Below are positions 27,634 to 62,956 of a stretch of DNA of 64,000 bases, piece after piece (position 1 is the stretch's first letter; each line of letters starts with the position of its first letter). Both the position numbers and the translations under genes were made by a program. The notes beneath the pieces are model-generated. The model was given only the letters and a program-made list of their open reading frames with translations, was not told the origin of the DNA and made no database searches. The stretch lies in contig NC_016025.1 of NCBI RefSeq assembly GCF_000226295.1, positions 62,001 to 126,000 on the forward strand, written 5' to 3'. Origin of the DNA: Chloracidobacterium thermophilum B. Its GTDB lineage: Bacteria; Acidobacteriota; Blastocatellia; Chloracidobacteriales; Chloracidobacteriaceae.

Positions 27634-28698
27634 ATGGATGCCATCGAACCAACGGTCGAGTGCGATGTCACCCTCGACGAGCATCCCTTTCACCTGGAGG
27701 ACGGGGGTGAACTGCCGGAGGTGACACTGCGGTGCGCCTGGTACGGCGACCCGGAAGCGGCCCCCGGCGGCGTCATTCTCGTCTGCCATGCCCTGACCGG
27801 TTCAGCCCGGGTGGCCGACTGGTGGGGCGGACTGGTCGGGCCGGGGCGCCTGCTGGACCCGGCGCACTATGCCGTCGTGGGCATCAATGTGCTTGGTTCC
27901 TGCTATGGTTCGACCGGGCCGACGACGCTTGACCGACGGCGTGGACGCCCCTACGGAGCGCGGTTTCCGCTGGTGACCATCGGGGATATGGTGCGCGCCC
28001 AGTACCTTGCGCTGCGGCAACTGGGCATCCTGCGCCTGACGGCCGTGATTGGCGGTTCGATTGGGGGCATGCAGGCACTGCGCTGGGCCACGGATTTCCC
28101 CGCCCTGCTCGATGTCTGCTGCGCCATTGGCGCGACGCCACTGCCGGCCATGGGGTTGGCGCTGAACCATCTTCAGCGGCAGGCCATCCTGTCCGACCCC
28201 GCCTGGCAGGATGGCGACTACACGACGCAGCCGGTGGCCGGACTCGCCCTGGCCCGCGCCATTGCCATGTGCAGTTACAAGTCAGCGGCGCTGTTTGATG
28301 CCCGTTTCGGCCGCCGTCCCGACCGGTCAGGTGAAGACCCCCGAAAGATGCTGACCGGAAGATACGACGTAGCCGGCTATCTCGACCACCAGGGAGAAAA
28401 GTTCGTCCGGCGGTTTGATGCCAACAGCTACCTTGTACTGAGCAAAGCCATGGACACCTTCGACCTCACCGATGCGGAACTGGCGCGGATTCGCGCCCGG
28501 ATACATCTGGTGGGGCTGTCTTCGGACTGGCTTTTTCCGGCCGCTGGCGTGCGCGCGCTGGCCCACCGGCTGCGGGCAGTCAATGTGGCGGTTCAGTATG
28601 ATGAAATCATAACCGACCATGGCCACGATGGCTTTCTGGCCGAACCCGATGCCGTTGCCCCCTGCCTGCGTGCGGCACTCACAACCCAACCCACATGA
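27634..28698 (+). CDS. metX: Homoserine O-acetyltransferase
   Basis: A 354-residue alpha/beta-hydrolase-fold enzyme that acetylates homoserine from acetyl-CoA, supplying MetY. The catalytic Ser142 is in IGGSIGGMQALRW; Asp and His lie in GLSSDWLFP and DHGHDGFL near the C-terminus. NVLGSCYGSTGP and RFPLVTIGDMVRAQ are typical MetX blocks. I chose the ATG at 27634 because upstream codons fall in the hairpin region. The 4-base stop/start overlap with lysC (28695-28698) indicates translational coupling. Succinyl-transferring variants exist and cannot be excluded by eye. Confidence 0.94.
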   Translation: MDAIEPTVECDVTLDEHPFHLEDGGELPEVTLRCAWYGDPEAAPGGVILVCHALTGSARVADWWGGLVGPGRLLDPAHYAVVGINVLGSCYGSTGPTTLDRRRGRPYGARFPLVTIGDMVRAQYLALRQLGILRLTAVIGGSIGGMQALRWATDFPALLDVCCAIGATPLPAMGLALNHLQRQAILSDPAWQDGDYTTQPVAGLALARAIAMCSYKSAALFDARFGRRPDRSGEDPRKMLTGRYDVAGYLDHQGEKFVRRFDANSYLVLSKAMDTFDLTDAELARIRARIHLVGLSSDWLFPAAGVRALAHRLRAVNVAVQYDEIITDHGHDGFLAEPDAVAPCLRAALTTQPT

Positions 28699-30119
28699 AC
28701 CCAACACCATCTCTTTCTGTGCCTTCGGCCGCCAACCCCGGTCTGTGCCCCGTGGTGATGAAGTTTGGCGGCACTTCGGTTCAGGACACGGCGGCCTTTG
28801 AGCGGGTGGCCGCCATCATTCGTCGGCAGCAAGGTCAGCCGCCCCGACAGCAGCCCGTCGTCGTGGTGTCGGCGATGGCCGGGATGACCGATGCGTTGCT
28901 GGATGCCGTCAAGCGTTCCCTGGAACAGGACACGACGGCGGCGCTGGAGTGGCTGGAACCCCATTTTGCCCGCTACAGCGAGGTGGCCGAACGGCTGACC
29001 GAAGGGAGTGCCTACGGTGAGTTCGTCCACGTGCTCTATGCCGCGCGCGAACGCATCGCGCAGGCATTGGAGGTGATGCGCCGCTATCCGGGCACCATTC
29101 CACCGCTGCGCGATGAAGTCGTGGCCTATGGCGAACACCTTTCCGCCGCGCTGCTGACGGCCGTTCTGGCCGGTGACGGTACGCCCTGTCGCACGGTGGA
29201 TGCCCGGACGTGCATCGTGACAGATGATGTTTACGGACGCGCGCGCCCGCGCTGGGAGGCAACCCAGGCCTACACCCGTCAGGTTTTGGGGCCGCTGCTG
29301 GCGGAAGGAGTCATCCCGGTGCTGGGCGGCTTCATCGGCGCGACCTTTGAGGGCGCGACCACGACACTTGGCCGCGGCGGCTCGGATTATTCGGCCACCC
29401 TGATTGGCGCCGCACTTCAGGCCTGCGAAGTCCAGATTTGGACGGATGTCGCCGGCATTTACTCGGCCGATCCACGTCTGGTTGCCCAAGTGCGGCGGCT
29501 GGACACACTGGCTTACGGGGAAGCCACCGATCTGGCGCTCTACGGGGCGAAAGTGTTGCATCCACGCACCATCGAGCCGGTCGAGCGGTTGAGCATTCCG
29601 GTGAGCATTCGCAACTCGTACGACCCGGAAGCTGGCTACTCGACGATTAGGGCTTCATCCGGCGCCCCGGCCGGGGCCATTCTGGCCGTCACCCACCGCA
29701 ACGGTGTGGCCGCCGTTCACGTGCGTCCACGGGGGAGCTGGCGCACGGCCGTGGCCCTGGACGAAATGGCCCAGATTCTGGACGCCCACGGCATCCTGGT
29801 CGAGCACCTGGCGGCCTCGCGCCTGGGGCTGACGGCCACAGTGGAGGACGGCGAGGCACTGGAAGCGGCCCGGCGCGACCTTCAGACCTGTGGCGACGTG
29901 CAGGTGACGACCGACCGCGCGCTGCTGTGTGTCGTCGGCAACTTCGGAACTGAGGCCACGGAACTACATCCGGCGCTGAGCGAAATTCTGGCCGAGTTTC
30001 GTTCCACGCCGCTGTTGCCCCATCCATCGCCCCACGCGCGTCTGTTTCTTCTGGCGGAAGCTGCCGCGCCGACGGCCGTCCAGAAGCTGCACGCGCAGCT
30101 CATTGAAAATCCAGCCTGA
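28695..30119 (+). CDS. lysC: Aspartate kinase
   Basis: A 474-residue monofunctional aspartokinase, first step of the aspartate family pathway. The N-terminal VMKFGGTSV is the kinase signature; GGFIGATFEGATTTLGRGGSDYSATL is the ATP/aspartate site block near residue 215. The C-terminal 150 residues form two ACT domains for feedback control. It lacks a homoserine dehydrogenase domain, unlike ThrA or MetL. It overlaps metX by 4 bases, so its synthesis should be tied to the methionine genes and the upstream SAM-II riboswitch. Confidence 0.95.
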   Translation: MNPTPSLSVPSAANPGLCPVVMKFGGTSVQDTAAFERVAAIIRRQQGQPPRQQPVVVVSAMAGMTDALLDAVKRSLEQDTTAALEWLEPHFARYSEVAERLTEGSAYGEFVHVLYAARERIAQALEVMRRYPGTIPPLRDEVVAYGEHLSAALLTAVLAGDGTPCRTVDARTCIVTDDVYGRARPRWEATQAYTRQVLGPLLAEGVIPVLGGFIGATFEGATTTLGRGGSDYSATLIGAALQACEVQIWTDVAGIYSADPRLVAQVRRLDTLAYGEATDLALYGAKVLHPRTIEPVERLSIPVSIRNSYDPEAGYSTIRASSGAPAGAILAVTHRNGVAAVHVRPRGSWRTAVALDEMAQILDAHGILVEHLAASRLGLTATVEDGEALEAARRDLQTCGDVQVTTDRALLCVVGNFGTEATELHPALSEILAEFRSTPLLPHPSPHARLFLLAEAAAPTAVQKLHAQLIENPA

Positions 30120-30171
30120 GCGTGTCACCGTGTCACCCGTGAAACGCCCCAACTGCCGGAGGTGATCCGCC

Positions 30172-30903
30172 ATGGCGGAACTTTCCGATGCCAGCCTGCT
30201 TGTCCGCTCCTTTATGCGCGCCTACCGCTACACGGTATCCGTCTGGCAACCGGCGCGGCTGACCAAGCCGCTGTCCGCCTGCAAGGTCGGCTTGGTGACG
30301 ACGGCCGCCTTTCACCTGCCCACGCAACCGACGTTTGATCTCAAGCTGGCCGGCGATCCGTCCTTTCGCATCATTCCGACCGACTGTGACCTCACCACGC
30401 TCAAGGTCGGGCATGTCAGCCCTTCGTTTGATCACACGGGTATCGAGCGCGACCCGAACCTGGCACTGCCCATCACCCGTTTTCAGGAACTCGTGGCGGA
30501 AGGTGTCGTGGGCGAACTCAACGCGCGGGCCTGGTCATTTTGCGGTTCGATTGCCAAGCCGGGGGAACTCATTGCCCGTACCGCGCCGGAAGCTGCCGCC
30601 CAGGCCCGGGCCGACGGCGTGGAAGTCGCCCTGCTGACCCCGGTCTGACCGATGTGCAATCAGTCGGTCGGACTGATTCAGGCTGCATTTGAAAACGAAG
30701 GCATCGTGACGGTCTCGATTTCACTGTACCGGTTCGTCACCGAGAAGGTACGTCCGCCGCGCGCCCTGTGGGTACCGTTCCCGCTGGGGTATCCCCTGGG
30801 CGAACCCCACAACCCGGCGCTCCAACGGCGGGTTATCCTGGCGGCGCTGGAGTTGTTGACCGCCGATGAGCCGTTGCCGCTCATCCGCGACTTTCAACCA
30901 TGA
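30172..30903 (+). CDS. GrdB-family selenoprotein (in-frame TGA = selenocysteine)
   Basis: One 243-codon gene of the glycine/sarcosine/betaine reductase selenoprotein B (GRDB) family, read through TGA at 30646-30648. Before the TGA are GDPSFRIIP, HVSPSFDHTGIERDPN, FCGSIAKPGEL and VEVALLTPV; after it, in the same frame, come PMCNQSVGLIQAAFENEGIVTVSIS and PPRALWVPFPLGYPLG. The TGA falls at residue 159, giving U-P-M-C, the redox UxxC motif of this family. A SECIS-like hairpin lies at 30658-30678. The ATG at 30172 follows GGAGGTGA. The reductase partners (GrdA, GrdE) are not here; short stand-alone members have no defined substrate, and a thiol/selenol redox role is likely. Its stop overlaps the cruF start by 4 bases. 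Confidence 0.88.
30658..30678 (+). promoter_or_regulatory. Bacterial SECIS-like hairpin
   Basis: A perfect 8-bp stem AATCAGTC/GACTGATT with a GGTCG loop. The loop begins 17 bases after the TGA, inside the window in which bacterial SECIS loops are found, and starts with G-G-T like the SelB-binding loop of E. coli fdhF (which contains GGUCU). It lies in coding sequence, as bacterial SECIS elements must. Confidence 0.82.
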
Positions 30904-31697
30904 CCGATCTGCTGCATCGCCTGGCGGGGACCGTCCTGCTGCGTCCCTACGTCTTTGTGTTCCTGCTGGCGTACCTGTTTCTGGCTGTGGCGCGGCTGGG
31001 CTGGCTGCGTACCCTGGTCTGGACTGTTACGGCGTATCTCATCGCCTGGGCCTGTGAATGGAGTTCCGTTCACAACGGGTTTCCCTTCGGGCGGTACGAC
31101 TACATTGACCGCACGAGTGACCGCGAACTGTGGGTGGCGGGCGTGCCTTTTTTTGATTCGCTGTCCTTTGCCTTTCTTTCCTTCATCAGCTTTGAAGCGG
31201 CTGTCATCCTGCGTACGCCGTTGACTTCCTGGCATGTGTCGCCCGATGACGCTCCGGCGCGGCGGTCATGGCTGACGACCGTCTATGCCGGACTGCTGAT
31301 GATGTTTCTCGATGTGGTGATTGATCCGGTGACGCTCCAGGGTGAGCGGTGGTTTCTGGGGCAAATCTACGGCTACCCACACGGCGGCCCACACTTTGGC
31401 GTGACGATTGAAAACTATGTCGGGTGGTTTGTGGTCAGCGTACTCATCACCACGACCTTTCGCCTGTGGGAAGCAACGCTGCTGCGTGGTGTGGCGCGCA
31501 CGGGAAGCTTTGCCTTTCCGTTCCAGCATGTTGCTCCGCTGGGGGTCTATTTCGGCATCTTTGCCTTCAACATTGCTGTCACGTTCTGGATTGGCGAGAC
31601 GACCATGGGCTGGGCCAGCACCTTCATCGCGTTCCTCATCGGCTGGATGTTCGTGCAGCACGCCCTCTCGCCCTACCGAAGCCGGTCCGGCGAGTGA
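30900..31697 (+). CDS. cruF: Carotenoid 1,2-hydratase-like membrane protein (CruF family)
   Basis: A 265-residue integral membrane protein with about seven hydrophobic segments. It matches the CruF/DUF422 type: ACEWSSVHNGFPFGRYDY near residue 50, then VPFFDSLSFAFLSF, LDVVIDPV and WFLGQIYGYPHGGPHFGVTIENYVGWF. CruF hydrates the psi end of carotenes such as gamma-carotene on the way to glycosylated carotenoids (myxol-type). That suits a phototroph whose chlorosomes and membranes contain carotenoids. The start overlaps the selenoprotein stop. The partner glycosyltransferase CruG is not nearby. Confidence 0.85.
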   Translation: MTDLLHRLAGTVLLRPYVFVFLLAYLFLAVARLGWLRTLVWTVTAYLIAWACEWSSVHNGFPFGRYDYIDRTSDRELWVAGVPFFDSLSFAFLSFISFEAAVILRTPLTSWHVSPDDAPARRSWLTTVYAGLLMMFLDVVIDPVTLQGERWFLGQIYGYPHGGPHFGVTIENYVGWFVVSVLITTTFRLWEATLLRGVARTGSFAFPFQHVAPLGVYFGIFAFNIAVTFWIGETTMGWASTFIAFLIGWMFVQHALSPYRSRSGE

Positions 31698-31821: not shown

Positions 31822-32127
31822 TTACCAACTGGCCTTTCTGACACCCGGAATCTCACCCCGCAGGGCCAGTTCGCGGAACTTGATGCGCGACAGGCCGAAC
31901 CTGCGCAGATACCCGCGTGGGCGTCCCGTGATAGCGCAGCGGTTGCGAATGCGTACCGGGGAGGAGTTGCGCGGCAGGTCCTGGAGCTTGTATAGCGCCG
32001 CTTCGCGCTCTTCGTCAGTTGCGTTCGGGTTGCGGATGATGGCCTTCAGCGCGGCCCGCTTTTCGGCATACTTGGCGACAAGGCGCTTGATTTTCTCAGC
32101 TTTGGCAATGCGACTTTTCTTGGCCAT
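31822..32127 (-). CDS. rpsN: 30S ribosomal protein S14 (uS14), zinc-free form
   Basis: A 101-residue S14. AKKSRIAK starts it, and [27 protein letters not shown] is the hallmark C-terminal block. The long form without CxxC pairs does not bind zinc. It sits alone beside bL31 instead of in the spc operon, where S14 is normally found. The gene for bL31 is 69 bases upstream on the same strand. Zinc-free S14 and L31 copies are often grouped and de-repressed by Zur in zinc shortage; no Zur operator is obvious here. Confidence 0.96.
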
Positions 32128-32196
32128 AACGACTCTCGTGAAATGAGCAATGTTGACTCACCCACCGGCTCTGGCGGGCAGCCGCCACAGTGTCTG

Positions 32197-32484
32197 TCAC
32201 TTTGACGCCTTCGCCGCTGGTTTGTCCGCGGCCCCGGTCGTCTTCTTCCCATAGCGCCGGTTGAAGCGGTCAACGCGCCCGGCGGTGTCCACAAACTTCT
32301 GCTTCCCGGTGAAGAAGGGATGGGAAGCCGCGGAGATGTCCAGCATCACCAGCGGGTATTCCTGCCCGTCAATGGTGATGGTCTTGTTGGTTTTGACTGT
32401 CGAACGGATGATGTAGTTGACATCGGCGGATTCGTCCCGGAACACGACGGGACGGTAATTTTCGGGATGGATGCCTTTTTTCAC
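32197..32484 (-). CDS. rpmE2: 50S ribosomal protein bL31 type B
   Basis: A 95-residue type B bL31. MKKGIHPENYRPVVFRDESAD, SASHPFFTGKQKFVDTAGRVDRFNRRYG in short blocks and the lack of the CxxC zinc ligands identify the type B form. The C-terminal tail is Lys/Ala/Pro-rich. It is followed by rpsN. Whether a zinc-binding type A L31 exists elsewhere cannot be seen. Confidence 0.96.
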   Translation of the reverse strand: MKKGIHPENYRPVVFRDESADVNYIIRSTVKTNKTITIDGQEYPLVMLDISAASHPFFTGKQKFVDTAGRVDRFNRRYGKKTTGAADKPAAKASK

Positions 32485-61114: not shown

Positions 61115-62956
61115 TCACTCGCCACGCAATGCCACCCGCAGCGCCTTCTGGGCCGGAGTTGGGTTGGGCAGGGGGCCGACGGCCACATCGAGCGTGGTGA
61201 TAACCTCCGGGGTCAGAGTGACGGTCAGGGGGCGTTTTTCCCGGAGGACCGTCAGCTTGACCGCTTTCTGCGGCTGAAGGGTGGACAGCACCGCCGCAAA
61301 ATCGGCTTCACTGCGGACAGGTTTGCCGGCCACGGTGCGCAGCAGGTCACCTTCTTCAAGGTCAGATTCCCCGGCCGGCGAATCGGGATCAATCTCGACG
61401 ATTTCCAGTCCGGCCGGTGTGGCTTCCAACTCGAAGCCGAAATCGAGTTCCGTCATGGGTTCGGCCAGCATGGCCATGCCCATGTGGTTCAGGGCCGTCT
61501 CCAGCGGCAGCTCGTCCGTTCCTTCCACGTAGCGCCGGAACCAGCTTTCCAGGTCTGTCCCAGCCAACTTGCTGGCCGTGGCTATGATGTCCTCGTGCCG
61601 GTAGCCCTGGCTTTCGGGCGGAAAATCCCGCATAAGCTGCCGCATGAGGTCGTCGAGACCGCGTGCATTTGACGTACGGGTGCGGATTTCAATGTCGAGC
61701 AGCAGCCCGACGATAAAACCCTTGCGGTAGTAATCGAGCGGGATGTCCTCGAAGCTGCTCGTGCCGGTCAGCCACGTGCCGATGGACGCTTCGGCCAGAC
61801 TGACCTGCCCGGCGGCCGGGTTGTTGGCCAGATAGGTCAGGGTGCTGCGGATGGCTTCATCGAAATCGGCCGCGGAAATCAGTCCGGCCCGCCGCAGCCC
61901 GCGCCAGGCATAGTATTCCGTGACACCCTCGGCAAACCACAACTGCGGCGTGTACAGCTCGCGGTCAAGTGTGTAGTCGGCAAACTCCCGTGGCCTGAGA
62001 CGTTTGACGTTCCACGCATGGAAGAACTCATGCGCCGTCACTACCAGCCAGTTCTTCGTCTGGGGCTGGTCGAGCAGGTCTTCCGGCGCGTAGTTGATAA
62101 GGGTTCCGTTGGCGTGTTCGAGGCCTTCCAGCCGCTCGTCGTCTTCGTCGGCGAAGGGCAGGTACTGGAACATGTACTGCTCGAAGGGCAGGCCGCCCAT
62201 CAGGTCGGCGTAGGTTTCAATGATGGTTGTCACAGCCTTCTGCAACCCGGCCGGGTCTTTGGGCGGGCGCGTCGTGACAATGGCAATGGGTTTGTTCCGT
62301 ACCGAAATGTCCAGGCGCGTCAACCTGCCAACCGCAATTGGGGCGTCAATGAGTGCGTCATAGCTTTCAGCCGTGTAACTCTGGTCAGCGCGGCGGGGTA
62401 GCGGCAGAGCCGCCTGCCAGCCCTGGGGAAGGTGGAAGGTAAGCGTTGCGGGCCAGTGTCGTCCATCCGGGACGTAGAGCAACGTTGCCGCGCCGGCAAG
62501 CTGCCCGTAATCCGGGCCAAGCCAGTTGGAATCCACGCTCTGGCGGTCGCACAGCAGTCCATACCGCAGGATGACCGTGGACTGTCCGGCACATCGGACG
62601 CGCCAGGTCTGTTTGTCCCGTCGCCGCAGCAGCAGCGGTTGCCCATCAGGGCCCTGGGCCGTCAACTCGAAGAGATGTTTGGCGTGGTTGAGAATTTCGT
62701 AGGAACCCGGCGTCCAGGCCGGAAGGGCGACATCCAGGGTTTCGCGCCCGTCAAGGTTGTGAATCGTCATTTCGATGCGCGCTTCGTCGTCGCCGGGCGC
62801 GCTGATGGTGATGCGGTAGTCCACCGTCGGCTGCGCCACGGCCAGCAGCGGCGTCCAGCCGAGCAGAAAAAACCAGAGCAGAAGCTGCGACGGAAAACCT
62901 GCCGGTCGAAGGGGTAATGACCGGACACGAAACGTACGAACGGAAAAAGGCATCAT
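61115..62956 (-). CDS. M61-family peptidase with PDZ domain
   Basis: A 613-residue exported peptidase of the glycyl-aminopeptidase (M61) type. The N-terminus has a signal peptide (LLLWFFLLGWTPLLAVAQ); a beta-domain follows, then the zinc site HEFFHAWNVKRLRP near residue 310 and the downstream Glu in WFAEGVTEYYAW. A PDZ domain is at about 500-590 (IDPDSPAGESDLEEGDLLRTVAGKPV). These enzymes act on peptides in the periplasm, often preferring N-terminal Gly or Ala. It converges with the GT-C gene; the ATG at 62956 begins the signal region. Confidence 0.9.
   Translation of the reverse strand: MMPFSVRTFRVRSLPLRPAGFPSQLLLWFFLLGWTPLLAVAQPTVDYRITISAPGDDEARIEMTIHNLDGRETLDVALPAWTPGSYEILNHAKHLFELTAQGPDGQPLLLRRRDKQTWRVRCAGQSTVILRYGLLCDRQSVDSNWLGPDYGQLAGAATLLYVPDGRHWPATLTFHLPQGWQAALPLPRRADQSYTAESYDALIDAPIAVGRLTRLDISVRNKPIAIVTTRPPKDPAGLQKAVTTIIETYADLMGGLPFEQYMFQYLPFADEDDERLEGLEHANGTLINYAPEDLLDQPQTKNWLVVTAHEFFHAWNVKRLRPREFADYTLDRELYTPQLWFAEGVTEYYAWRGLRRAGLISAADFDEAIRSTLTYLANNPAAGQVSLAEASIGTWLTGTSSFEDIPLDYYRKGFIVGLLLDIEIRTRTSNARGLDDLMRQLMRDFPPESQGYRHEDIIATASKLAGTDLESWFRRYVEGTDELPLETALNHMGMAMLAEPMTELDFGFELEATPAGLEIVEIDPDSPAGESDLEEGDLLRTVAGKPVRSEADFAAVLSTLQPQKAVKLTVLREKRPLTVTLTPEVITTLDVAVGPLPNPTPAQKALRVALRGE

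Follow-up and report, generated by a model that had tools for sequence, protein, structure and literature searches.

A predicted PrdB-like selenoprotein gene with an in-frame TGA and a SECIS-like hairpin in Chloracidobacterium thermophilum

Described relatives and the gene in the window

In the E. coli fdhF SECIS, a short hairpin directly 3' of the UGA carries G-U within a small loop. Selenocysteine (Sec)-containing PrdB proteins with a UxxC motif have been reported from the Sargasso Sea set (42 genes; PMC1088965) and from GOS (235 genes; PMC2398784), where 'proline reductase PrdB' is named as a Sec family of marine metagenomes, and the family also appears in reviews (PMC13188914, PMC9312934). 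For the Acidobacteria, three families with four selenoproteins are listed in one source (PMC1794560), and one acidobacterium with three selenoproteins in another (PMC12013277). No account of Chloracidobacterium selenoproteins was found in the open-licence PMC literature, as represented by titles and the beginnings of abstracts, and none of a 'PrdB-like' selenoprotein was found in the open-licence PMC literature. The Sec-containing PrdB family is already published and the gene described here is a further member, apparently without the usual enzyme partner.

The window is a stretch of 64,000 nucleotides, positions 62001–126000 of contig 2 in a genome made up of two contigs (3,695,372 bases in total). 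Within it, a single open frame runs from ATG 30172 to TGA 30901–30903, broken solely by the TGA at 30646–30648 (Table 1). A first-pass annotation had proposed a continuous frame split at this codon, with Sec159 followed by P-M-C, and translation across the TGA agrees, giving 243 residues with U159-P-M-C162 and conserved protein sequence on both sides of the UGA. Ka/Ks in four comparisons of Chloracidobacterium-group genes was 0.102–0.133 before the TGA and 0.036–0.081 after it. The TGA and the hairpin that follows it are, on the sequence evidence, under selection, and the half of the gene beyond the TGA under selection at the protein level.

Likenesses to PrdB (TIGR04483) are the UxxC motif, a size of about 26 kDa, a UGA predicted to be decoded as Sec and profile similarity over residues 23–230; the window protein differs in falling under the equivalog cut-off and in belonging to a phototrophic acidobacterium, not an amino-acid-fermenting clostridium, whose genome has no match to PF09338, presumably the family of pyruvoyl partner subunits that covers PrdA. 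GrdB, the selenoprotein B of glycine/sarcosine/betaine reductase (PF07355), belongs to the same superfamily, and the window protein can be aligned with the C-terminal region of GrdB-type models, but these models have about 430 residues against 243 here, the Pfam cut-off is not reached and, again, PF09338 is unmatched. The hairpin in the window resembles the fdhF element in being short, in its place just after the UGA and in having G-U in its small loop, and differs in that its loop is GGUCG on a perfect 8 bp stem.

Table 1. Features of the PrdB-like locus and of the second TGA-containing gene (window positions unless a locus is named)
Feature	Position	Strand	Basis
PrdB-like selenoprotein gene (predicted)	30172..30903	+	243 aa, Sec at residue 159; homologue alignment, Ka/Ks
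Shine-Dalgarno-like sequence GGAGGTGATC	30158..30167	+	5' of ATG; read in sequence
In-frame TGA, predicted selenocysteine; UPMC motif with Cys162	30646..30648	+	same column TGA in 82 of 130 loci
SECIS-like hairpin, 5' arm AATCAGTC	30658..30665	+	sequence, covariation, frozen codons
Apical loop GGTCG	30666..30670	+	identical loop in the genome's second TGA gene
SECIS-like hairpin, 3' arm GACTGATT	30671..30678	+	sequence, covariation, frozen codons
CruF-like carotenoid gene	30900..31697	+	PF04240 71 bits; CruF models below cut-off
Aspartate kinase gene, possibly in the same transcription unit as the selenoprotein	28695..30119	+	upstream; profile matches
Redoxin (PF00578), predicted second selenoprotein	L178:2077-2613, C2 near 578399	-	in-frame TGA, UPFC motif, hairpin

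The probable selenocysteine codon, its hairpin and the decoding machinery

A search of 396 genomes of the phylum gave matches in 102, comprising 64 with at least one match carrying an internal TGA and 38 with only TGA-free matches. The alignment comprised 130 loci (L016–L145), among them the copy in the window itself (L021), a near copy (L022), a fragment lacking the site (L138) and one match judged spurious (L145). The Sec column shows TGA in 82 loci, Ser in 28, Cys in 13 and Asp or Glu in five, with one gap and one Thr (the spurious L145). The TGA loci include three GrdB-like genes (L142–L144), six in which the second Cys lies one residue later, and one (L076) with a second TGA in place of the second Cys. 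In a quick tree of 124 rows, reconstructed with the site blanked and without L021, L022, L138 and L142–L145, the window fell in a set of 36 rows, itself included (SH-aLRT 99), and the 28 Ser rows formed one side of a single branch (SH-aLRT 100); deep branches of this tree are weak and several rows are long. Close relatives with a codon other than TGA or Cys, which the first-pass annotation had named as counter-evidence, were not found, as all 36 rows of the clade carry TGA; Ser, Asp or Glu occupies the site only in distant homologues outside it. TGA was also found at the site in all five named relative contigs, of which one Blastocatellia MAG and two MAGs of Chloracidobacterium stand nearest (88, 87 and 86 % identity), in a comparison that may omit records very near the window's genome. 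The natural Ser, Asp and Glu versions provide ready-made comparisons for the role of selenium. In the Ser-bearing PrdB-like branch (28 loci, including L084–L086, L090, L093 and L095) the second Cys is kept and the hairpin is lost.

The perfect 8 bp hairpin with a GGTCG loop that had been described after the TGA is present at 30658–30678. Its reported distance of 17 bases from the TGA is correct for the start of the loop and incorrect for the stem, which starts 9 bases after the TGA. As a single sequence, the hairpin is not remarkable and folds only mildly better than shuffles (z −1.28 for a 39-base stretch beginning at the TGA, −1.38 for one of 49 bases and −2.11 for the 33 bases that follow the TGA). 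A 61-base fragment beginning upstream reached z −3.10, but through a different, longer hairpin that takes in the UGA; this alternative (30641–30675) beats the SECIS-like hairpin once upstream sequence is included. That the hairpin stands above chance follows instead from comparison, namely the TGA in 82 of 130 loci, covariation and codon freezing.

Folding was compared with 300 synonymous-codon shuffles per gene for 128 loci. The mean z was −1.67 in the 82 TGA loci (39 at P≤0.05) and −0.07 in the 28 Ser loci (none at P≤0.05), while some folding signal was kept in the 13 Cys loci (mean −0.99, three at P≤0.05) and the five Asp/Glu loci (mean −1.05, one at P≤0.05). The mean number of pairs kept, out of eight, was 7.29 in the 76 TGA loci with UxxC spacing (L076 included), and 6.00 in the six with the later Cys; for the Ser, Cys and Asp/Glu loci it was 4.29, 4.69 and 4.40, respectively. 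A few TGA loci in the UxxC register keep just 0, 3, 4 or 5 pairs (one locus each). Across the 53 distinct hairpins of these 76 loci, 91.6 % of the cells are paired when seven pairs are counted, and shuffling of entire arms gave 72.5 % (maximum 77.9). A further count used 45 chosen sequences, the window (whose hairpin is identical to that of L016) and 44 of 52 distinct sites, leaving out the GrdB-like L142–L144 and the divergent L078, L117, L123, L131 and L140. In this set, a choice that favours structure, 97.5 % of 315 cells paired (81.2 shuffled), 57 cells had changed on both sides (15.1 shuffled) and covariation was 0.535 (0.209 shuffled), and versions of the hairpin slid along the sequence were 19–44 % paired, at most 43.5 %. 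Two measures were less clear: five pairs with a double change against 3.1 shuffled (38 of 500 shuffles as high) and 13 further pair types against 11.1 (58 of 500 as high). These counts describe a conserved, covarying stem-loop directly downstream of the codon, and point to a hairpin that is kept by compensatory changes and lost where the site is Ser.

Codon usage was compared among five Chloracidobacterium-group genes (the window, L016, L017, L018 and L023). Identical codons were found at 45 of 181 degenerate positions with an invariant amino acid, and the longest identical run, codons 161–168 (eight codons; next longest two), covers the greater part of the hairpin. Variation at the final hairpin base leaves L023 without the outermost pair. 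An Rfam search of 30500–30900 gave no match up to E 1. A genome-wide run of the hairpin model R1, in which 150 of 3011 candidates were scored, returned the selenoprotein gene at E 3.2e-9 and the next match at E 1.55.

Machinery for Sec, which the first-pass annotation could not see in the window and proposed to seek as selA, selB, selD and selC in the genome, is encoded elsewhere in it, with all four components present. A tRNA-Sec lies at C1:1597326-1597419 (62.4 bits, cut-off 47), and ARAGORN calls the locus tRNA-SeC(tca). This call matters because the tRNA-Sec search also gives matches at E≤0.001 in each of 14 control genomes, five of which exceed the cut-off; a second match over the cut-off in the genome itself (49.2 bits) is tRNA-Leu by ARAGORN. 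The proteins SelB (358.2 bits), SelA (501.7) and SelD (383.8) were all over their cut-offs and without an internal stop, as compared with two, one and two of the 14 control genomes, respectively. Among the 64 genomes with a TGA copy, selB was found at E≤1e-60 in 63 and selA in 62, and each has one or both: G055, an assembly of 370 contigs without a selB match, has selA, and G104 and G226, without selA, have selB. The gene selB was also found in 34 of the 38 genomes having only TGA-free matches, the other four (G197, G307, G181 and G219) carrying Ser versions, and in 256 of the 396 genomes overall. A Fisher test of its association with a TGA copy gave P=3e-12, uncorrected for kinship. With 256 selB genomes against 64 TGA-copy genomes, the phylum commonly has the Sec trait, and the majority of its selB genomes are without a TGA copy of this gene.

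Taken together, conservation of the TGA, covariation of the hairpin, codon freezing, the Sec machinery and a second TGA gene in the genome indicate that 30172–30903 is very probably one working gene with UGA 30646 read as selenocysteine. The alternative that translation stops at the TGA and is resumed from ATG 30652, with a gene caller's two ORFs being two separate short proteins, draws on an ATG that begins three bases past the TGA and opens an 83 aa ORF. However, an ATG occupies this position in only 29 of the 82 TGA loci, while the preceding Pro codon is found in 78; this lack of conservation led to rejection of the restart. A covarying hairpin, a single-chain PrdB profile that spans the join and the presence of Sec machinery also argue against two proteins, a reading that is highly improbable. 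An in-frame stop within a conserved frame is likewise the usual sign of a decaying pseudogene or a sequencing error, but the identical TGA recurs in many separate genomes and Ka/Ks stays low beyond it, so that a pseudogene is rejected and decay or error as a whole is left with a negligible probability. The selenoprotein reading proposed from the first inspection has thus passed the sequence tests applied to it (site conservation, hairpin, codons and machinery). At this UGA, SelB carrying Sec-tRNA(Sec) would bind the hairpin just downstream, with its GGUCG loop, and selenocysteine would be inserted in place of termination; we infer both the binding and the insertion. Genes such as this one would appear split or truncated in annotations from gene callers blind to UGA decoding.

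Protein family, partner subunit and neighbouring genes

The best model for the window protein was PrdB, at 121.8 bits against an equivalog cut-off of 300, and GRDB was just missed (19.7 bits, gathering cut-off 22). All 34 aligned members matched the PrdB model, and all 34 matched GRDB at E≤0.1 (best 5e-14). The earlier label of GrdB family is therefore right as to superfamily and inexact as to family, the protein being closer to PrdB and just under the Pfam cut-off.

A further alternative is that the protein is a selenoprotein and a true subunit of D-proline or glycine reductase. Such a reading is favoured by PrdB being the best model and matching every aligned member, but the score is far below the equivalog cut-off and a profile search for PF09338 found no match in the protein's own genome or in 62 of the 64 TGA-copy genomes. 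The remaining two (G371 and G123) did give matches, evidence that the search is able to detect the family, and both of these genomes also have long GrdB-like TGA genes. A subunit of either reductase is accordingly very unlikely, and the name 'proline reductase' may mislead for stand-alone copies, since the partner family is mostly absent. From that absence, our best guess, which we hold as evenly balanced, is that the protein is a stand-alone selenol-thiol reductase acting through its Sec/Cys pair (or with Sec as a nucleophile), which would serve its substrate without the pyruvoyl partner used by clostridial PrdB. The PrdB-like selenoprotein lineage is spread over the Acidobacteriota, mostly without the usual partner family. 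The long GrdB-like TGA genes L142 (G123:C1) and L143 (G371:C53) lie beside PF09338 genes on the same contig and likely belong to glycine/betaine-type reductase systems.

A confident structure prediction, made with Cys substituted for Sec (pLDDT 92.5, pTM 0.91), has an alpha-beta-alpha, Rossmann-like fold, in which Sec-Pro-Met-Cys would occupy a loop before a helix, with residue 159 between strand 152–156 and helix 162–175. Foldseek returned no match at E≤0.001. The best fold-search matches (best VIA Z 8.2) were LacI-type and other Rossmann-like domains, near background and possibly reflecting only a common arrangement. A weak Thioredoxin_3 match was seen in four of the 34 members (best E 0.011). 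A sequence search of solved structures with the single protein gave no match at E≤1, and a profile match at E 2.9 to a designed protein was taken as chance.

Upstream of the selenoprotein gene lie genes for O-acetylhomoserine sulfhydrylase, MetX and aspartate kinase, and downstream the ATG of the CruF-like gene overlaps the final TGA (ATGA). Adjacency and overlap with cruF were seen at all six Chloracidobacterium-group loci, and aspartate kinase with MetX at five. At the sixth, L147, from a congener, the selenoprotein–cruF pair stands behind different upstream genes, suggesting that the pair may move as a unit. At 20 loci outside the Chloracidobacterium group, some ending at contig ends, metY, metX, lysC and cruF had no match, an SDR gene had one weak match (25 % identity, L151), and no neighbours informative for function were found. 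Translational coupling gated by selenium is an improbable proposal for this genus, in which, because of the ATGA overlap, ribosomes would reach the CruF-like start efficiently only after reading UGA 30646 as Sec; if true, selenium supply would set carotenoid synthesis in a phototroph. Further downstream, 31822–32484 on the minus strand holds small side-by-side ORFs that resemble, by eye, ribosomal proteins S14 and L31.

A second TGA-containing gene

Formate dehydrogenase-type selenoproteins were sought among three PF00384 genes, which have no stop inside the matched stretches. A search of the genome with PF00578 gave 17 matches, one with an internal TGA. In this redoxin, U72-P-F-C precedes a hairpin that shares the GGTCG loop; this hairpin is absent from the nine matches of model R1, and its folding alone is unremarkable (z −0.80). 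The redoxin was found in nine of 98 genomes of the class; the TGA is kept in all seven of the genus, the genome's own included, and is lacking in two distant homologues (34–38 % identity). Its longest run of identical codons, six, lies over the hairpin (next longest two), with 14 % of 130 codons identical; the seven sequences compared were picked by the hairpin string, a selection that excluded none, as every one of them contains it. The PrdB-like gene and the redoxin are unrelated, and a loop shared between them would be expected if both were served by one SelB. The phototroph is predicted to incorporate selenium into its proteins, two selenoproteins being a lower bound. One of the redoxin sequences, L182, also has a TAG within the matched stretch.
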